Source of the DNA: Anaerolineaceae bacterium
GTDB lineage: Bacteria > Chloroflexota > Anaerolineae > Anaerolineales > Anaerolineaceae
Reading direction: 5' to 3'
Length of the DNA: 6,845 nt
Assembly: GCA_028699715.1 (NCBI GenBank)
Contig: JAQVUC010000056.1
Coordinates: 1-6,845, forward strand
Each line of letters begins with the position of its first letter. The first letter of the stretch is position 1. The notes under the pieces are model-generated. The model saw nothing but the letters and a program-made list of their open reading frames with translations. It searched no databases and was not told where the DNA came from. The position numbers were made by a program, and so were the translations under genes. This document shows, one piece after another, positions 474-6,845 of this stretch.

Positions 474-508
474 CCCAAATGTGTGATCAAACATATCGCA
501 CTGACAGG

Positions 509-538
509 CCCAGAAACCGCAATGGTTTCTGGGTTTTT
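509..538 (+). terminator. Rho-independent terminator of the tRNA operon
   Basis: A perfect 10-bp stem, CCCAGAAACC (509-518) with GGTTTCTGGG (524-533), has a 5-base loop and is followed by TTTTT (534-538). It closes the two-tRNA transcript and separates it from the rhamnosidase remnant. Confidence 0.92.
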
Positions 539-566
539 CATATCCGGAATTTTGCGAGGTATCTTT

Positions 567-1272
567 ATGGAACATTCATTTAAGGGGCAATGGATTACTG
601 ATTCCAAAGGTGACAAAATTGCTTGATGCATATCGCAGGTGCTACGAAACAGATCATTTGCTGAGGAACCTTGACAAATGGTGCGTGGTTGAATGGCCAA
701 AGAATTTTCAGCATGATAATGATGTGGATATAACGGAGGGAAAAGTTTGTGAAGAGGCACACGTATCAATCAACGCTTATTATATCGAAGCGATACGCAC
801 CGCCAACAGAATGGCACATATTCTGGGACGACAAAAATATCGTGATGAAAAGCCCTTGCTCGACAGATTCTACGCGGTCTTTTACAATGAGGAGAAAAAG
901 CTGTTTAAAGACGGTGAAAACACAAACCATATCAGTCTCGTCGGGAACAGTTTTGTCTATGGATTTTCTCTTTGCCCCGACAAAGAATGTGAGCAAGCTA
1001 TCATTGAAGCCATAAAAAGAGAGGGCATCAGTTCGCTTTCATTTTTCTGTGTTTTCCCTGTATTGCTTGGCTATGCCAGAAATGGAAGAACTGACCTTAT
1101 TAAGGAAGCTCTTTTAAATAATGGTGCATGGAGACGCATGCTTCGTGAAGATGCCACGACCACCTTTGAGGGTTGGGGCAAGTCCACCAAATGGAACACG
1201 TCCCTATTCCACTTAACGATGTCATACGTCGCCACTTTCATGGCGGATGTGGCGATTGAGAAAATTCTTTGA
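567..1272 (+). pseudogene. Alpha-L-rhamnosidase (GH78-like) gene with internal deletion and frame break
   Basis: Two pieces of one family 78-like gene are fused. Piece 1 starts at ATG 567 behind GAGGT (556-560) and reads MEHSFKGQWITDSK, a typical N-terminus for this family, but its frame stops at TGA 624-626. Piece 2 is a different frame, homologous-looking from about 592, and runs to TGA 1270-1272 (about 220 residues from GTG 610). It shows the C-terminal part of the catalytic (alpha/alpha)6 barrel: WCVVEWPKNF, DVDITEGKVCEE, NHISLVGNS, and ATTTFEGWG followed by KWNTSLFH. The Glu in TFEGW matches the general-base position expected for GH78. The first catalytic block (DCPxRE-like), the carbohydrate-binding and linker domains and most of the barrel are missing, which would be roughly 500 residues in a full-length enzyme. 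GTG 610 or TTG 619 behind AAAGGTGA could start a fragment, but an enzyme is not expected. The family call comes from motif recall, not a search. Confidence 0.68.
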
Positions 1273-1373
1273 GATATACCCAACCACGGAGGGGCGGACA
1301 GCTTGCGTAAAGAGCACCCGGCAAAGCACGTTCCCGAACCTTTTACTTTGATACCATAAAGGAGCGCCACGAT

Positions 1374-2120
1374 ATGCACATCATCAGGAACATACTCAGT
1401 AAAATAGTATACGGCATCGCCCGGGCGCATGCCTTCCTGCTTGACGGGCTCGTCTACATTATTGAAACTGGTGTTCTGCTGGTGCGAAGCTTCCTCAGGG
1501 GATGCGCCATATTGATCAGCATGGGTGGCTGCCTGGCTGTCATCCTGCTTCTCGGCCCGGTTGGCCACTGGATCACACAACATCCTTCACTCATTGTTGT
1601 TTCGCTGATTATCCTGGTCTTCCCTTTACTGGGTGCAGCTTCTGTCTCATTCCTTAAGGCTTTCAAAGAAATCAGCACCCGGTATTTGTTTCATTTATCC
1701 CGGCATCTTGAGGATCCTGAACGGTACATGTATCATGCTTACCGTTTTTACCGCCAGGCATACCGTCAGGCTGAAGAAGATGCACAACGCCGGGAAAGGG
1801 ATCGTCGAGAACAGCAGCAAAAAGCCTGGGAAGATAGATTTCGTCAATGGCATCAATATGGCGGAACCTGGCAGCAACAGGAACAGGTTCAAGCCAATCC
1901 CTACCTCGACTTCAAACGCAAGTATGAAGAGAGCTGTGCCCTTCTGGACGTTCCAGTAACGGCAGATCAGTATAAAATCAAGCTGGCTTACCGAAAAAAA
2001 GCTAAAATATACCATCCTGATATCAATAAAAGCCCTGATGCGACACGAAAATTTCAGATGGTCAATGAAGCGTATGAATTTCTCAATGAAGACAATATAC
2101 AGCGCTATAAAAGAATCTAA
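1374..2120 (+). CDS. Membrane-anchored J-domain protein (DnaJ-like co-chaperone)
   Basis: A 248-residue protein. Residues about 43-62 and 72-93 are two hydrophobic segments forming a membrane hairpin, and a basic amphipathic stretch precedes them. Residues about 120-175 are a highly charged, Gln/Arg-rich helix (RQAEEDAQRRERDRREQQQK), likely a coiled coil or spacer. Residues about 186-246 are a C-terminal J domain: ALLDVP, a basic helix II (KLAYRKKAKIY), the diagnostic HPD at 214-216, and helix III with FQMVNEAYEFL. J domains stimulate the ATPase of Hsp70 (DnaK). There is no Gly/Phe region and no zinc domain, so it is a class III type that would recruit DnaK to the membrane. ATG 1374 is chosen because AAAGGAG (1358-1364) lies 9 bases upstream. 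No client can be named; the following rpoD has its own promoter. Confidence 0.85.
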   Translation: MHIIRNILSKIVYGIARAHAFLLDGLVYIIETGVLLVRSFLRGCAILISMGGCLAVILLLGPVGHWITQHPSLIVVSLIILVFPLLGAASVSFLKAFKEISTRYLFHLSRHLEDPERYMYHAYRFYRQAYRQAEEDAQRRERDRREQQQKAWEDRFRQWHQYGGTWQQQEQVQANPYLDFKRKYEESCALLDVPVTADQYKIKLAYRKKAKIYHPDINKSPDATRKFQMVNEAYEFLNEDNIQRYKRI

Positions 2121-2224
2121 GCGATACCATACGTTTTCTTGCGTTCAGGAAAACGCTCCTGACTGATTTGCATACCACGCCAATCTCGGTTGGTCTGATC
2201 TGATGGTCAGGAGAATACACCTGT
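2121..2224. other. Non-coding gap with overlapping, mutually exclusive stem-loops
   Basis: This gap after the J-domain gene contains several inverted repeats that share bases. CGTTTTC (2132-2138) pairs with GAAAACG (2149-2155). TCAGGA (2145-2150) pairs with TCCTGA (2157-2162). CTCCTGAC (2156-2163) pairs with GTCAGGAG (2206-2213). None has a good T-run, so none is a convincing terminator. I see no gene here. Confidence 0.4.
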
Positions 2225-2253
2225 TCGACATGCAATTTCCGCCATAATATGAT
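2225..2253 (+). promoter_or_regulatory. Promoter of rpoD
   Basis: TCGACA (2225-2230, one mismatch to TTGACA) is followed after 17 bases by TATGAT (2248-2253). An overlapping perfect TATAAT (2253-2258) gives an alternative -10 box with a poorer -35. Transcription from near 2260 would leave a leader of about 180 nt before rpoD, so the gene has its own transcript and does not depend on the J-domain gene. Confidence 0.65.
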
Positions 2254-2283
2254 ATAATAAAAGGAATTCGTGCCGATTTATAC

Positions 2284-2301
2284 GTTCATGCATGCATGAA
2301 C
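2284..2301. promoter_or_regulatory. 18-bp perfect palindrome near the rpoD transcription start (candidate operator)
   Basis: GTTCATGCATGCATGAAC is a perfect 18-bp palindrome about 25-40 bases downstream of the predicted start site. As DNA it has the symmetry of a site for a dimeric repressor blocking early elongation. As RNA it would form a 7-bp hairpin with a CAUG loop. I do not recognise it as the site of a known regulator. Confidence 0.45.
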
Positions 2302-2358
2302 ACATTCATTCTGAGATGATTCACCTGTATTCATCGGACAGGCAGTTTGGCTCAGCAA

Positions 2359-2418
2359 CAGGCCGTTTCCTGGTGGTCAACCGACTCACTTTCGAGTCGT
2401 TGGAACTGGAAACGGCTG
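2359..2418 (+). promoter_or_regulatory. Two-tier stem-loop in the rpoD leader
   Basis: The outer stem is GCCGTTTCC (2362-2370) with GGAAACGGC (2408-2416), 9 perfect pairs extended by G-U and C-G pairs. The inner stem is CGACTC (2382-2387) with GAGTCG (2394-2399), extended by CAA/TTG past a bulged C. The structure ends about 9 bases before the G-rich ribosome binding site, leaving that site exposed. There is no T-run, so it is not a terminator; a role in mRNA stability or translation control is inferred. Confidence 0.55.
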
Positions 2419-2426
2419 GCTACCAT

Positions 2427-2443
2427 GGGGGGGAATATTAATG
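2427..2443 (+). promoter_or_regulatory. Unusual G7 ribosome binding site of rpoD
   Basis: Seven consecutive Gs (2427-2433) lie 7 bases before ATG 2441 and are the only possible Shine-Dalgarno sequence. Pairing with CCUCC works only with a G-U pair, unlike the AGGAGG-type sites of neighbouring genes. An ATG at 2425 directly precedes the tract in another frame; loss of one G would place it in frame with rpoD. Confidence 0.55.
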
Positions 2444-3508
2444 CAGGATCATATAAACACACAGTTGGTTTCAGACCTCTTGATACGGGCTCGCGCCGCA
2501 GGCGGGAAATTGGGGCGCGACGATATCCTTCAAGCGCTTGTATTCAATGATCAGGATCCGGACGACGCTGACGCGATCATTGCTCAGCTTAGCTTACACG
2601 GCATAACAGTCAATCAGGAATCTGATCAGGCTGATGAAGATAAGGGTGATGTACTTTCTGAAGACCTCTCCCAGATCGCTGTTGATGACCCTGTGCGCAT
2701 GTACCTGAAAGAGATTGGCAAATTCGACTTGCTCACCCGCGATGAGGAAATAGATTTGGCTGAAGCAATTCGGAACGGTGATGAAGAAGCGAAAAAGAAG
2801 CTGTGCGAAGCCAATCTGCGCCTGGTTGTCAGCATAGCAAAGCATTATGTCGGCCGCAACATGCATTTCTTGGACCTGATCCAGGAGGGCAACATCGGGC
2901 TGATGAAATCAGTTGATAAATTCGATCACACCAAAGGCTTTAAATTTAGTACCTATGCCACCTGGTGGATTCGCCAGGCGATAACCAGGGCGATTGCCGA
3001 CCAGAGCAGAACCATCCGTGTCCCCGTGCATATGGTTGAGTTAATCAACAAAACAATCCGCTGCCAGCGTCGGCTGAGCCAGCATCTTGGCCGGGAACCG
3101 GATGTTGAGGAAATCGCTGAGGAAATGGAGCTGCCGGTCGATAAAATAACAGAAATCATGAAATACGCCCTCGATCCCATATCCCTTGAAAAACCCATCG
3201 GCGAAGAAGGCGACAGCATGCTGGGTGACTTCATCCCAGACGAAGATGCCACCTCACCTATCGAGCATGCCTCACAGCAGATGTTTCGCGAGCAGCTGTT
3301 TAAAGTTCTGATGACCTTAACACCCAGAGAAAGTAAAATCCTGCGCCTGCGTTACGGTCTGGATGACAATAGGTCACGGACACTTGAGGAAGTCGGCCGT
3401 GAATTCAACGTCACCCGTGAACGCATCCGCCAAATTGAGGCGAAAGCACTGCGAAAACTGCGTCACCCTTCGCGGAGCAGCGTGCTAAGCGGCAGCCTTG
3501 ATCATTAA
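2441..3508 (+). CDS. rpoD: RNA polymerase primary sigma factor RpoD/SigA
   Basis: The 355-residue housekeeping sigma factor directs core RNA polymerase to TTGACA/TATAAT promoters. A short region 1.1 is at about 8-60, then an acidic linker. Region 1.2 starts at [12 protein letters not shown] (82-93) with [11 protein letters not shown]. Region 2 (about 120-190) holds [14 protein letters not shown], the core-binding [19 protein letters not shown] and the -10-reading [16 protein letters not shown]. Region 3 follows ([15 protein letters not shown]), then the finger [10 protein letters not shown] (264-273). Region 4 ends with [27 protein letters not shown] and [12 protein letters not shown], the -35-reading helix-turn-helix. 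Length fits SigA of Clostridia and Bacilli, which lack the long non-conserved insert of proteobacterial RpoD. A region 1.1 and an unaltered 4.2 mark it as the primary factor. The usual upstream dnaG is absent. Confidence 0.97.
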
Positions 3509-3579
3509 AATCGTATCCAGGATGTGATTAATCCCATGATGTTGTCGCAGACCCAAAACAGAGCTGAAAAAATAATCAC

Positions 3580-3608
3580 TTGACAAATCGCCATTTTCGG
3601 CGTTTACT
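3580..3608 (+). promoter_or_regulatory. Promoter of the zinc-ribbon gene
   Basis: A perfect TTGACA (3580-3585) is followed after 17 bases by TTTACT (3603-3608, 4 of 6 matches to TATAAT). The spacer holds a short dyad, CGCC (3589-3592) with GGCG (3599-3602), flanked by AAA/TTT, which could bind a regulator. No terminator for rpoD is evident between 3509 and 3579, so read-through from rpoD is also possible. Confidence 0.6.
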
Positions 3609-3609
3609 T

Positions 3610-3633
3610 AAGTAGTCGTTAAAACGACAGCTT
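3610..3633 (+). promoter_or_regulatory. Dyad at the transcription start (operator or 5' hairpin)
   Basis: GTCGTT (3615-3620) and AACGAC (3623-3628) form an inverted repeat. It is extended by AAGT (3610-3613) with GCTT (3630-3633) across one A-A mismatch. It sits immediately downstream of the -10 box, where the mRNA would begin, so it could be an operator or a stabilising 5' hairpin. Confidence 0.45.
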
Positions 3634-3885
3634 AATGGACTTGGCCCGGCGTCAGGAAAACCTGCCTATCCGGACAGAAACAGCATTATGCATACAGCAC
3701 AGGTTTTATCAAACAAGGAACACCGGTCATGTATGTATAAAAGCAATGACAGTTAACAGAGGTATCCAGACAATCAGCTTGGAATCATCCGACTGAACAC
3801 TCCCATCAAAACGGTTCAAACGACCAGAACAAATTCCGGTAAGGCTATGGAGCCTGCCGGGGCAAAGTGAAAGAGGATTAAAAAA
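3615..3885 (+). other. Long untranslated leader of the zinc-ribbon gene
   Basis: About 270 nt separate the predicted transcript start from ATG 3886, with no protein-coding signal of note. Visible structure: CAGG/CCTG with an A4 loop (3653-3664), TTTTAT near 3704 facing ATAAAA near 3736, and a compact hairpin at 3836-3860 just before the ribosome binding site. The length recalls cold-shock-type leaders, but I do not recognise a cold box or a known riboswitch. Confidence 0.4.
3836..3860 (+). promoter_or_regulatory. Hairpin just upstream of the zinc-ribbon ribosome binding site
   Basis: CCGG (3836-3839) pairs with CCGG (3857-3860) and AGGCT (3842-3846) with AGCCT (3851-3855), with an ATGG loop. 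It ends 12 bases before GAGGA (3873-3877). The loop ATG (3847) opens a 7-codon frame (MEPAGAK) ending at TGA 3868-3870 just before the Shine-Dalgarno, a possible upstream mini-ORF. Confidence 0.4.
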
Positions 3886-4185
3886 ATGCCAGACAAAAGC
3901 ATCGTATGCAAAGATTGCGGAACAACATTCATGTTTACAGAGAACGAACAAGCTTTTTACGCTGAAAAAGGCTTTGACAACGAACCACAGCGTTGCCCGG
4001 AATGTCGTGCCGCTAGAAAACAGGCTCGCAACAGTGGACGCGGTGGATTCCAACAGAGAGGCGAACGCGAAATGTTCCCGGCCACCTGTTCAGAATGTGG
4101 CTGTGAGACCATGGTTCCCTTCAGGCCATCAGGTGATAAGCCAGTTTATTGCCGGGAGTGTTACCAGCAGATGAGAGGCCGTTAA
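3886..4185 (+). CDS. Small protein with two zinc ribbons (zf-trcl / CxxC-x17-CxxC type)
   Basis: A 99-residue protein. The N-terminal ribbon, DKSIVCKDCGTTFMF...FYAEKGFDNEPQRCPECR, carries Cys 8, 11, 37 and 40 and matches the family I recall as probable zinc-ribbon zf-trcl (PF13451). The C-terminal ribbon has Cys 68, 71, 89 and 92 with exactly 17 residues between the CxxC pairs. The linker (about 44-62) is Arg/Gly/Gln rich with SGRGG and QQRG, resembling RGG-type RNA-binding tails. Each ribbon should bind one Zn2+. No catalytic function is evident; a role in RNA or nucleic-acid binding is inferred from the linker and from the long structured leader. GAGGA (3873-3877) lies 8 bases before ATG. 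It is monocistronic, with its own promoter and terminator. Confidence 0.9.
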   Translation: MPDKSIVCKDCGTTFMFTENEQAFYAEKGFDNEPQRCPECRAARKQARNSGRGGFQQRGEREMFPATCSECGCETMVPFRPSGDKPVYCRECYQQMRGR

Positions 4186-4209
4186 GCTAATCTCCAATGC
4201 AAAATCATC

Positions 4210-4243
4210 AGCCCCCGCCGGTTATGCCGGCGGGGGCTTTTTT
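4210..4243 (+). terminator. Strong rho-independent terminator of the zinc-ribbon gene
   Basis: A 12-bp perfect GC-rich stem, AGCCCCCGCCGG (4210-4221) with CCGGCGGGGGCT (4227-4238), has loop TTATG and is followed by T6 (4238-4243). The convergent minus-strand gene ends at 4298, so the hairpin may also stop transcription from that side, though only a broken T-run follows on the minus strand. Bases 4244-4297 hold nothing else visible. Confidence 0.95.
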
Positions 4244-4297
4244 GTTACACCCTATGGGTACAGCCATGATCAACCGCAGGCATATCCCGCTTCTTTT

Positions 4298-4978
4298 CTA
4301 CAGCTCAGCTGATGCTGCCTCATACGGAACGCGTCGTTCCGGGCAGTTCTCCCGGGGGCACAGACGGCAATTCTCAAAGTGATTTTTCGCGGAAAAGTAG
4401 AAACCAGAAACCGACTTGGAGGGAATCATCAGGCAGGAATCCGTCAGCTTGACCCCTATGGCATCCGCCAGATCGGACATCAAGGCAAAGAGCGGTTTCT
4501 GCTGAGTGATCGGCCAGTCAGCTAATGAGCCGGGGCTCATCTGTGACAGGTCGCTCTTGGCAAAGTACTTGTTCTGAACGGTCTTGCGCATATGCTGGAT
4601 GCTTTGCCGGAGTACCTGGTTTTTTATCTCGTCAGCCCAGTACTGCTCCAGAAAATCCGTATAACCGCGCGACCATGCATCAATTTCAGTGCCGCAAGTC
4701 GCGACATAAGGCAGCACGCGATGCGATTCACCCAGGTTGCGCCGAAGCAGGGCTGATGTAAAGATATGCCCTTCCACAAGGATCTCCTCTTCCCGTTTTT
4801 CCTCAAGCGCTGCAACAGCAAACACATACTTGGGCCGGGCAATCTGCTCTGCTTCCTTTAGCATGCGGCAAAAGGATTGATAGTCTTCGTTCTGAAGATC
4901 ATCGTCAATTTTCAGTTTTTTTAAGAGCAGGCCAAGGTTCAGTCTAAAAGGGATATCCGCTTGTATGGTCTTCTGCAT
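4298..4978 (-). CDS. Stand-alone B12-dependent methionine synthase activation-domain protein
   Basis: A 226-residue soluble protein. Residues about 80-190 match the activation (SAM-binding, reactivation) domain of cobalamin-dependent methionine synthase MetH (PF02965 as I recall): ATCGTEIDAWS, DEIKNQVLRQSIQHM, MSPGSLADWPITQQKPLFALM (147-167), AIGVKLTDSCLMIPSKSVSG (173-192). The homocysteine, folate and cobalamin modules of MetH are absent. After the domain comes FENCRLCPRENCPERR with Cys 204, 207 and 212, a CxxCx4C group seen in stand-alone versions, possibly a metal or Fe-S site. In MetH this domain uses SAM and an electron donor to rescue oxidised cob(II)alamin. Here it probably serves a separate corrinoid protein encoded elsewhere. 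GGAAGGA lies just upstream of ATG 4978. The upstream neighbour is the ferritin-like gene, with the inserted palindrome between them. Confidence 0.85.
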   Translation of the reverse strand: MQKTIQADIPFRLNLGLLLKKLKIDDDLQNEDYQSFCRMLKEAEQIARPKYVFAVAALEEKREEEILVEGHIFTSALLRRNLGESHRVLPYVATCGTEIDAWSRGYTDFLEQYWADEIKNQVLRQSIQHMRKTVQNKYFAKSDLSQMSPGSLADWPITQQKPLFALMSDLADAIGVKLTDSCLMIPSKSVSGFYFSAKNHFENCRLCPRENCPERRVPYEAASAEL

Positions 4979-5032
4979 GTTTATCCTTCCTGATTTTCAG
5001 TCTGCAACCAGCGGCAGCTTTACCGGTATAAG

Positions 5033-5039
5033 TTCAATA
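5033..5039. repeat. Left copy of the 7-bp target duplication TTCAATA
   Basis: TTCAATA directly abuts the left terminal repeat of the 131-bp element and is repeated exactly at 5171-5177 on the other side. Removing the element and one copy restores a continuous ferritin-gene 3' end followed by the short leader of the next gene. Confidence 0.85.
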
Positions 5040-5170
5040 CACAACTTTCCCACCCCGCACAGCGGGTAGACTTTTCAGGCGCTGCTGTTTGACAGGCTGA
5101 GGAGCTTGCTCCGCGGTCAAACAGCCTGGGCAGCAGGAGTAAGCGCCGATAAGTCTGTGGGAAAGTTGTG
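5040..5170. mobile_element. 131-bp palindromic MITE-like element
   Basis: The ends are a 14-bp perfect inverted repeat, CACAACTTTCCCAC (5040-5053) and GTGGGAAAGTTGTG (5157-5170), flanked by the direct repeat TTCAATA. Inside, nested pairings continue: AGACTT (5068-5073) with AAGTCT (5151-5156), GGCGCT (5078-5083) with AGCGCC (5142-5147), GCTGTTTGAC (5084-5093) with GTCAAACAGC (5116-5125), and GGAG (5101-5104) with CTCC (5109-5112). The left arm alone carries a 14-base insert with its own hairpin CCCGC-ACA-GCGGG (5054-5066). The whole element could fold into one long branched hairpin as RNA or single-stranded DNA. It has no coding capacity, so it would need a transposase supplied in trans. There is no T-run, so it is not an ordinary terminator. 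The family is not recognised. Confidence 0.82.
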
Positions 5171-5177
5171 TTCAATA
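5171..5177. repeat. Right copy of the target duplication, overlapping a stop codon
   Basis: TTCAATA here reads TATTGAA on the minus strand and contains the last Tyr codon (TAT) and the TGA stop of the ferritin-like gene. The duplication therefore preserved the reading frame and stop despite insertion at this point. Confidence 0.85.
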
Positions 5178-5654
5178 GTCTTCCCTTTTACCGAACTCGG
5201 CATCTTCGACCCAGTCTTCAGGTCGGCGCAGCAGGGTCAGCAATGTATCGAATAGCTCATAATGCTGTTTTTCCTGGTCAATCAGGAACCGTAGAAGCTC
5301 CTGGTCTTCGGAGGCAGCCATCTTGTCCAACAGCTCTTCATATTGTGCCACGCTTTTCTCTTCCAGATCCAGCGCGTGAGCATAAATATCCAGTTGCCGC
5401 GGGATCGATGTGACATCAGCCTTGAAGTCCTCTAATTCACTAAACACATTACGGTCATCTGTGAGCAGCGACAGTTCCGCGGTGACATTCAAACCTTCTG
5501 CCCTTTTCTGCAGCAGCCTGGCATGCTTCTGCTCAGCTCCGGCCAGCAGTGTGAAAACACGGCTGATCGCATGACCTTTATGACTGGCGGCCTGCTCCAG
5601 ATAATATTTCTCTCCGTCCTGTTCCATCTTAATGGCAAAATCATAAAGATTCAT
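5172..5654 (-). CDS. Ferritin-family (rubrerythrin-like) diiron protein
   Basis: A 160-residue all-helical protein with the four-helix pattern of COG1633-type ferritin-like proteins. Likely metal ligands are Glu11 (AIKMEQDGEKYY), the first ExxH at Glu41/His44 (AEQKHARL), Glu98 or Glu99 (LDLEEKSVAQYEEL) and the second ExxH at Glu128/His131 (DQEKQHYELF). There is no C-terminal rubredoxin domain, so it cannot relay electrons by itself as classical rubrerythrin does. Peroxide scavenging or iron handling in an anaerobe is the usual inference. The start is set at ATG 5654 because GGGAGGA lies 5 bases upstream and the helix pattern begins there. An in-frame extension to 5813 runs through promoter-like and repeat sequence and is probably non-coding. 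The 131-bp element begins at the stop codon. Confidence 0.88.
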   Translation of the reverse strand: MNLYDFAIKMEQDGEKYYLEQAASHKGHAISRVFTLLAGAEQKHARLLQKRAEGLNVTAELSLLTDDRNVFSELEDFKADVTSIPRQLDIYAHALDLEEKSVAQYEELLDKMAASEDQELLRFLIDQEKQHYELFDTLLTLLRRPEDWVEDAEFGKREDY

Positions 5655-5676
5655 CTTAATCCTCCCTGTGTTCGCC

Positions 5677-5696
5677 TGGCTGTGTTCACTCAGCCA
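5677..5696 (-). promoter_or_regulatory. Small stem-loop in the ferritin-like gene leader
   Basis: TGGCTG (5677-5682) pairs with CAGCCA (5691-5696) around an 8-base loop. It lies in the presumed leader, about 13 bases upstream of the ribosome binding site. The 8-bp direct repeat CTGTGTTC (5666-5673 and 5680-5687) overlaps it. Confidence 0.3.
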
Positions 5697-5712
5697 AATC
5701 GTTTTATGGTTC

Positions 5713-5745
5713 ATTTTATCATATTTACACAACAATCCCACAGAC
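5713..5745 (-). promoter_or_regulatory. Candidate promoter of the ferritin-like gene
   Basis: On the minus strand TGATAAAAT (5721-5713) is an extended -10 element (TGn plus TAAAAT, 5 of 6). No good -35 box is present at the right distance. The start would fall near 5706, giving a leader of about 50 nt. The upstream part overlaps the diverged copy of the MITE end at 5728-5760. Confidence 0.4.
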
Positions 5746-5760
5746 ATTTCGCTGCTTACT
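5728..5760 (+). repeat. Diverged relative of the 131-bp element's end
   Basis: Compared with the reverse complement of 5138-5170, 27 of 33 bases agree. CACAAC, CCCACAGAC and CTTACT are exact, with substitutions between them. The similarity fades after 5760, although TCAGCC and an AAAAG plus CCCGC/GCGGG hairpin occur at roughly matching distances further on. A clean second terminal repeat and target duplication are not visible, so it looks like an old, decayed copy. Confidence 0.55.
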
Positions 5761-5824
5761 GCAGCGGCAAAGGGTTGGAGCGTTATGATCTTCATTTTAT
5801 CAGCCAGCAACATACGTTATCACT

Positions 5825-6517
5825 TCAACATAAAAGCCCCGCTGCAGGCGGGTATTCATGACAAAGCAGGTAGCGTGGCGCTTCATCCGCAATAACGTTC
5901 GGGAAGCGTCCCGCAGGTTTATAGAAATAATTGTCAGTTGTGTCATCATTGACTTGAGACACTTCTCCCGCTAAAACCATGCCAAACCCCTGCTCTGCCC
6001 GGAATCGATGGTACTGGTGTGTAGGCAGGGCAATGCTTTCCCCGGGGCGAAGCCGTATCACGGATCCTGCTTTTACCACACGAGCATGGCCATCAACCCT
6101 GATCGTTACTTCTGAGTCGGCGATCTGATGATCAATTGTGGCGTTATAGACGTCAACCAGAAGATTACCACCACCGCGATTGATGATATCTTCCATTTTA
6201 TTGCTATGAAAATGGAGTGGCGTGACTTGCCCTTCCCGAACGACCATTATTTTTTCTGCATAAGGTTTGCTCCCGGACTGTTTTTTTGAGCTACCATTGC
6301 GCAGGGTAAATAACAGCAGGCCGACTTCAGTATATGAGCCACTGCCAAAGTCCGTTATATCCCACCCCAGCATATTTTCTCTGATCTCATCAAATTCTGG
6401 CCCTTTACCCAGCCATTCTTCCGGTGTCCAGTACGCAAAAGGCGGCAATTTGAAGTTCATCATGCCTATAAAGACAACTGCCTCTGCCAGATAACGATTA
6501 ATATCTGACCTTTTCAT
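5825..6517 (-). CDS. D-lyxose ketol-isomerase (cupin sugar isomerase)
   Basis: A 230-residue cytosolic enzyme of the D-lyxose isomerase family (PF07385; relatives include Bacillus YdaE and E. coli O157 lyxose isomerase). It interconverts D-lyxose and D-xylulose and often D-mannose and D-fructose. The N-terminal part (NFKLPPFAYWTPEEW, DITDFGSG) is family-typical. The cupin metal motif is TPLHFHSNKMEDIINRGGGN, with His102, His104 and Glu109 as expected Mn2+ ligands and His170 (or 167) in PTHQYHRF as the fourth. AGAGGAGA lies about 10 bases upstream of ATG 6517. It follows the SGNH hydrolase gene by 23 bases, suggesting one operon for breakdown and use of deacylated sugars. The last codons (PPAAGLLC) run through the transcription terminator; relatives usually end near the preceding EYP. 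Confidence 0.9.
   Translation of the reverse strand: MKRSDINRYLAEAVVFIGMMNFKLPPFAYWTPEEWLGKGPEFDEIRENMLGWDITDFGSGSYTEVGLLLFTLRNGSSKKQSGSKPYAEKIMVVREGQVTPLHFHSNKMEDIINRGGGNLLVDVYNATIDHQIADSEVTIRVDGHARVVKAGSVIRLRPGESIALPTHQYHRFRAEQGFGMVLAGEVSQVNDDTTDNYFYKPAGRFPNVIADEAPRYLLCHEYPPAAGLLC
5832..5852 (-). terminator. Terminator overlapping the end of the lyxose isomerase gene
   Basis: On the minus strand CCCGC (5852-5848) and GCGGG (5842-5838) flank a 5-base loop, followed by GCTTTTA. The stem is short (5 GC pairs) and the T-run is 4, so termination may be partial. It lies inside the last codons, before the stop at 5825-5827. Confidence 0.5.
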
Positions 6518-6540
6518 GATGGCTCATCTCCTCTCTGATA

Positions 6541-6845
6541 TCAGCCTTCAATCTTTGCCTTGCGGGAAACAAACGTCTTATCCGGCAGATCTGCCTGTAT
6601 TTGCCAGTCTTTTACGGTTTTATACAAACGCGGAGCCATATAGGAAAAACCGGCAATATTCGGATGCAGCCAGCCATCAGAAAAGCAGGCAGGATTGTGA
6701 GGCGATACTTCCAGCCCGTCGATCAGATGAACACGGGATCCCGCTGCATCTATGGCTTGCTGGCTTAGGCATGCCACAAGCTGCTGAAAACTGCCACATT
6801 CTTTGCTTTTATGAAGATCATCACGCCAGATCGGTGTGATTACAA
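6541..6845 (-). CDS. SGNH/GDSL-type hydrolase, C-terminal part (partial)
   Basis: The frame is open from the window edge to TGA (6543-6541) and gives about 100 residues. VITPIWRDDLHKSKECGSF, then VHLIDGLEVSP, then the block-V-like SDGWLHPNIAGFSYMAPRL are the usual end of an SGNH hydrolase such as a carbohydrate esterase. The final block carries the catalytic His (HPN) and normally an Asp three residues before it. Here the spacing is D-G-W-L-H, one residue longer than the common DxxH. The Ser-containing block I lies outside the window. A deacetylase or esterase acting on plant polysaccharide would suit the lyxose isomerase gene 23 bases downstream. An internal GTG at 6777 is not the start. Confidence 0.78.
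   Translation of the reverse strand, partial: VITPIWRDDLHKSKECGSFQQLVACLSQQAIDAAGSRVHLIDGLEVSPHNPACFSDGWLHPNIAGFSYMAPRLYKTVKDWQIQADLPDKTFVSRKAKIEG

Follow-up and report, generated by a model that had tools for sequence, protein, structure and literature searches.

The window, by which we mean the whole 6,845-nt stretch of DNA analysed here, is contig C254 of the 1.7-Mb bin G000. It carries a 131-bp element that is a near-complete palindrome with two side hairpins, one per arm (Table 1). The element follows the stop codon of a rubrerythrin-like gene and precedes the start of another gene, which codes for a B12-dependent methionine synthase activation domain. An earlier note, made from the letters alone, had described perfect 14-bp terminal inverted repeats, a perfect 7-bp direct repeat around them, nested pairing over nearly the whole length and a lack of coding capacity, and these descriptions are borne out. 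The 145-bp stretch formed by the element and its direct repeats reaches −46.8 kcal/mol when folded as DNA, where shuffles average −20.3 (z −8.9), and −73 as RNA, where they average −44.8 (z −6.9); none of 200 shuffles did as well in either case. No open reading frame of at least 60 amino acids lies inside the element, which has room for 43 codons at most. Its GC content is 58%, compared with 48% for the window.

We scanned the window and 315 kb of collected loci for exact 12-bp inverted ends, 60–400 bp apart, accompanied by an exact 5-bp direct repeat, and this combination is unique to the element. An extra pair, A5039–T5171, also permits an alternative reading with 15-bp ends and a TCAAT duplication (see below). 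Promoter-like sites are no more numerous than in shuffled sequence, and at the Rfam gathering score the element is unmatched, two tRNAs being the sole entries. Elsewhere in the window, the open reading frame at 610–1272 (plus strand) matches only the later part of an alpha-L-rhamnosidase domain (profile positions 130–336 of 339) and is possibly a truncated gene.

Table 1. Positions of the features discussed in the text (window coordinates unless a contig is named; TIR, terminal inverted repeat)
Feature	Position	Strand	Remarks
MITE, 131 bp, complete copy	5040–5170	+	72.5–99.2% identity to 33 aligned G595 copies
Left TIR, CACAACTTTCCCAC	5040–5053	+	exact; 13 of 14 bases as at both ends of the insertion sequence at G595:C441
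Right TIR	5157–5170	−	exact reverse complement of the left end, 14/14
Left target duplication, TTCAATA	5033–5039		7/7 identity with 5171–5177
Right target duplication, TTCAATA	5171–5177		includes the stop codon of the rubrerythrin-like gene (5172–5174, minus)
Small side hairpin, CCCGC-ACA-GCGGG	5054–5066	+	immediately inside the left end; folding; helix 2, 91.5% of cells paired, 34 rows
Central stem-loop of the palindrome	5085–5124	+	folding; helix 4, 92.6% of cells paired
Small side hairpin of the right arm, CCTG...CAGG	5125–5137	+	folding; helix 5, 98.5% of cells paired
Rubrerythrin-like gene	5172–5654	−	Pfam PF02915
Gene with B12-dependent methionine synthase activation domain	4298–4978	−	Pfam PF02965
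Old decayed copy of the same family	5728–5848	−	right end well kept (47 nt, 77%); left end unrecognisable
Insertion sequence ends in G600	L179, 5863–5988; L180, 1–126		contigs stop 126 bp into the insertion sequence

Copies of the element and the probable host genome

The element occurs once in bin G000, and a search of the nominal genus (29 genomes) returned no copy except that of the window itself. A pattern search within one clostridial order located a different genome, G595, which belongs to the same family as the Clostridiales bin G045 (GenBank record SLMY01000257.1). Positions 479–5165 of the window equal contig C163 of G595 with 99.85% identity over 4687 bp, a comparison that stops short of positions 5171–6845 of the window; C163 terminates inside the element. 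The RpoD protein of the window has 56–58% identity to its matches in genomes filed under the same genus and 62–67% to genomes that were reached via records of Clostridiales and other Bacillota and lie in their class. Among the 28 other genomes of the nominal genus, of which several are incomplete, none gave a match to the rubrerythrin-like gene at E ≤ 0.001. On the basis of the C163 match and these RpoD and rubrerythrin comparisons, the contig is probably misplaced in G000 and foreign to that bin, and we take G595 as the probable host species.

In G595, we found 42 matches to the element at E ≤ 0.01 on 38 contigs, a count that includes C163, the window's own locus, and that comes from the 40 of 65 first-look candidates that were scored, so that further copies may exist. 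The matches are 74–99% identical to the element; thirty-five of them cover at least 110 bases and seven are shorter. Copies at other loci, which the earlier note had named as support for its reading, are thus present, and the palindrome is not confined to a single locus. For comparison of the copies, 33 of the 42 were aligned with the window copy to give 34 rows; the nine left out were C163 and eight matches that are for the most part incomplete or diverged. Identity to the window copy is at least 97% in 6 of the 33. The assembly comprises at least 497 contigs, a number of which end within these repeats; at least one pair of such contigs, C331 and C21, which have TGACATT in common, looks like two halves of a single insertion.

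The left-end pattern, CACAACTTTCCCAC with at most one mismatch, occurs at 50 sites in G595; none of 22 further genomes from the family has more than two. The right-end pattern occurs 17 times in G595 and once each in 3 of 187 other genomes of the order, so that by this search many copies are restricted to G595 within its order. Of 391 clostridial-class genomes sampled, 22 had hits at E ≤ 0.05, the best reaching 0.0014; these hits are 18–33 bp long and were taken as chance. Searches of plasmids and phages gave one chance match of 25 bp in one case and none in the other. In viral contigs, exact end-pair patterns are absent, and three 18-bp matches to the right-end pattern have no second end within about 200 bp. 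The rubrerythrin-like gene has relatives at six loci (best identity 48%); other window genes accompany it in none of the six, and the three loci that were scanned contain no comparable palindrome nearby.

Some copies in G595 depart from the common form. A 60-bp form with an internal deletion lies at C85:1562–1621 between two TTGTAA sequences, and the copy C115a starts with CTCAAC, as the insertion sequence described below does. On C236 (about positions 1078–1323), a copy adjoins a partial one, and the 19-bp repeat found there contains end-like sequence; it looks as though one end had given way to that of its neighbor.

Twenty-one places, the window and 20 in G595, have both flanks; at the remaining matches a flank or an end is missing. 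Flank agreement was compared for every register from 4 to 10, and register 7 alone rose above its shuffles: the mean flank match was 0.619, the shuffles averaged 0.395, and their highest value in 2000 was 0.517; registers 4–6 and 8–10 stay below their shuffled maxima. In this fixed register, the 7-bp flanks are exact in 4 of the 21 places, match in at least six of seven positions in 8 and in fewer than six in 13. The duplication of the C113 copy becomes exact after a shift of one base and was left out of the exact count, and the 7/7 counted for C236 is weaker than it appears because its right flank resembles an element end, giving the 19-bp repeat. The duplicated targets are AT-rich, and their ends lean towards T.....A, the first base being T in 15 of the 21 right copies and the last base A in 13. 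Since register 7 alone stands above the shuffles and the targets have this lean, the evidence favors a target duplication of 7 bp, as the earlier note had read it, and we rejected the combination of a 5-bp duplication with 15-bp ends. The T.....A preference may explain the apparent pairing of a 15th end base in the window. No empty site was found; the joined flanks of the 21 places, searched against the collected loci, gave self-matches only.

The window contains a second, decayed member of the family in reverse orientation. A profile of the G595 copies used with nhmmer matches positions 5848–5728 (minus strand) with E 8.3e-8 and 24.5 bits, whereas the best of 100 shuffled windows reached 6.1, and the same segment was picked up as an inverted repeat (I1). 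Its right end is located on the upstream side of the rubrerythrin-like gene. The left part, where the profile alignment is of low confidence and a plain alignment does no better than shuffles, runs into the gene for D-lyxose isomerase (5825–6517, minus). The Pfam domain of the isomerase ends at residue 222 (codon 5852–5854) and the profile match starts at 5848; the old insertion is therefore the likely source of this gene's stop codon and of its final seven residues. A one-sided copy was considered and rejected, as the family profile reaches 5848, though with low confidence there. We also considered whether the facing ends 5125–5171 and 5727–5773 bound a mobile unit around the rubrerythrin-like gene; their tips point inward, and the gene therefore lies outside both copies.

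A candidate partner insertion sequence

G595 also contains an insertion sequence of 1591 bp (C441:128–1718) with CTCAACTTTCCCAC at both ends (sites 128–141 and 1705–1718). Thirteen of the 14 end bases equal those of the MITE, so that a transposase gene bounded by like ends, as the earlier note had anticipated, is found in the same genome. The two end types combine to C(A/T)CAACTTTCCCAC, position 2 being A at both ends of the MITE and T in the insertion sequence. The outer 14 bp are all that the two have in common; their subterminal sequences differ, and the MITE is therefore not a simple internal deletion of the C441 copy. Among the 50 left-end sites of G595, C441 provides the only facing pair recognized at the distance expected of the insertion sequence, and the stretches examined hold one full insertion sequence against about 40 MITEs.

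The C441 insertion sequence has one uninterrupted transposase reading frame, which scores 493.8 bits with the NCBIfam IS4-family model NF049925 (cut-off 250) and matches the Pfam families DDE_5, DDE_Tnp_1 and, weakly, DDE_Tnp_2. The motif Y(2)R(3)E(6)K (YREK) is present at residue 338, and the spacing of the catalytic aspartates is in the family range, provided that D120/121 and D225 are the right residues. Compared by sequence with solved structures, the transposase gave no match at E ≤ 1. The flanks of this copy, TTACTTA and TCATTAA, agree in 4 of 7 positions and form no intact duplication.

In G600, a genome of the same family, C441-type ends lie at two contig tips, with 98% and 96% identity over 126 bp, where the contigs stop as if assembly had broken at a repeat. 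TTATTTA adjoins both tips, from which we infer a single insertion with a TTATTTA duplication. Plasmid relatives were matched in 101 records, five of which were examined for ends. In those from Bacillus velezensis and Selenomonas, similar ends are accompanied by 7-bp duplications (TAATTAA and TAAATAA, respectively, both 7/7); the one from Lactobacillus crispatus has clear ends and an imperfect repeat, and in the Geobacillus and Alicyclobacillus records convincing ends were not found. A small hairpin directly inside one terminal repeat is seen in several related insertion sequences (L178, L181 and L196) as well as in the MITE. We draw no conclusion from it, since it is absent or weak in other insertion sequences and has no fixed end relative to the transposase gene.

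Mode of movement and rival explanations

The copies, the duplications and an insertion sequence with nearly the same ends are all found in G595, and the interpretation as a MITE made in the earlier note stands. We hold it very probable that the element is a non-autonomous 131-bp MITE, present at about forty places in the host genome and likely mobilized by an IS4-family transposase of ISPepr1 type, encoded in a resident insertion sequence with nearly the same ends. The C441 transposase or a close relative would recognize the 14-bp ends, and the element would move by the usual DDE cut-and-paste route and be joined to staggered target cuts 7 bp apart. The closest copies, with at least 97% identity, would have moved recently. 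The long palindrome may be a by-product of two near-identical arms, and read-through transcription of the rubrerythrin-like gene in the direction of the B12-domain gene would give an RNA with a long stem. With 14 bp alone in common, a differing position 2, imperfect C441 flanks and no empty site, a C441-type transposase is put forward as the likely mover and no more firmly than that.

The MITE might instead have been moved by a different insertion sequence of the same subgroup, now lost or unassembled, that would end exactly in CACAACTTTCCCAC and match the MITE arms in its subterminal sequence. The difference at position 2 on both sides, the lack of similarity of the arms beyond 14 bp and the fragmentation of G595, with contigs ending inside these very repeats, all speak for such a mover. 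Against it, C441 is the sole recognized facing pair among the 50 sites, and C115a shows that one MITE copy has an IS-like start; we regard this alternative as unlikely, if the most serious of those considered. The earlier note had also suggested a hairpin or single-strand route, which found no support: duplications of fixed length, found together with a DDE transposase gene between like ends, suggest ordinary cut-and-paste. A REP/BIME or IS200-like single-strand repeat, intergenic and moved by a Y1 transposase through a hairpin, would agree with the hairpin form and with the 14 of 21 places that lack an overlap of at least 20 bases with a reading frame of at least 100 amino acids. Single-strand Y1 movers, however, are not known to leave a target duplication, and given the 7-bp duplication, the perfect terminal inverted repeats and the DDE partner candidate, we consider such an origin barely credible.

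The remaining question is whether the fold itself is maintained. A structured RNA that is kept by selection on its fold and spread by duplication instead of transposition would account for the strong folding and for the 92.6% of cells that are paired over 34 rows, compared with 91.7% after letter shuffles and 38–42% when the structure is slid along the alignment. It would also agree with the number of cells in which both sides have changed, 18 where shuffles give 6.5, and with a covariation score of 0.075 against 0.062, neither of which was reached in 500 shuffles; at columns 47 and 114, for example, C–G (20), U–G (6) and U–A (7) are found. These counts are, however, inflated by kinship among the copies, one of the aligned rows served as the source of the structure, and a single copy may have been entered twice, as C331 and C21, whereas the 6 pairs that show both-side changes are nothing out of the ordinary (71 of 500 shuffles). 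Single-sided changes in the stems comprise 50 G.T and 41 A.C cells (28 and 26 distinct), with no strand bias, so that neither strand's RNA fold appears favored and nothing marks a conserved RNA; the upkeep as RNA that the earlier note had allowed for is accordingly left without support. With 7-bp target duplications, no Rfam match and many copies in G595 alone within its order, we judge this explanation very improbable. Variation is 0.065 in paired and 0.116 in unpaired columns, and the pattern fits a palindrome that was inherited from master copies and decayed afterwards. A more speculative proposal, to which we give a small but real chance, is that the palindrome itself is selected. Master copies would keep their arms paired through matched changes, the hairpin, as extruded DNA or in a read-through transcript, would aid survival or jumping, and host genes would take up old copies, the end of the D-lyxose isomerase gene being a case in point.

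What began as a one-off palindrome can thus be described as a family of MITEs, of an ordinary kind, for which a likely partner transposase can be named. An ISPepr1-type insertion sequence seems to be accompanied by a high-copy, non-coding passenger, copies of which lie where contigs break and perhaps at the end of a gene. The finding also indicates that the contig has probably been placed in the wrong genome bin.

Comparison with known systems

According to De Palmenaer et al. (2008, PMC2266710), members of the ISPepr1 subgroup of the IS4 family are 1500–1600 bp long, have ends of the form YT-AA-YTT---A, the motif YREK and direct repeats of 7–8 bp, and insert into AT-rich targets. Measured against that description, the C441 insertion sequence agrees in length, in YREK and in all eight conserved positions at both ends. 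The 7-bp repeats are seen at the G600 flanks and in the two plasmid relatives, while the C441 copy's own flanks match in 4 of 7 positions. Its ends also satisfy 6 of 7 positions of the IS701 consensus line and the short lines of IS10 (2/2) and IS1634 (3/3). Judged from its sequence, the C441 insertion sequence fits the ISPepr1 subgroup type of the IS4 family. The MITE ends agree with the same consensus in seven of eight positions, CA replacing CT at the tip; the element differs from the described ISPepr1 insertion sequences in its 131-bp length and in having no transposase. We found no report of a MITE tied to the ISPepr1 subgroup in the literature searched, which lay outside ISfinder and most subscription papers and in which three papers name the subgroup. 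One of the three, PMC3542288, names both ISPepr1 and MITEs; it classes the latter as type II, showing no clear resemblance to its insertion sequence ends.

Of the MITEs covered by a review (PMC10969869), QMITE2 of Coxiella burnetii has direct repeats of 7–9 bp, ends of 23–29 bp, a core of 113–145 bp and a strong stem-loop in its transcript. Compared by description, it differs from the present element in its longer ends and in its core and resembles it in direct repeat length and strong stem-loop. MITEs are typically AT-rich according to the same source. Prokaryotic MITEs that have ends in common with an insertion sequence are termed type I in PMC3542288, and the present element departs from this type in being GC-rich and palindromic nearly throughout. 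The present element resembles this type in being short and non-coding, in its many copies, target duplications and strong stem-loop, and in having inverted ends that are nearly those of a resident insertion sequence.
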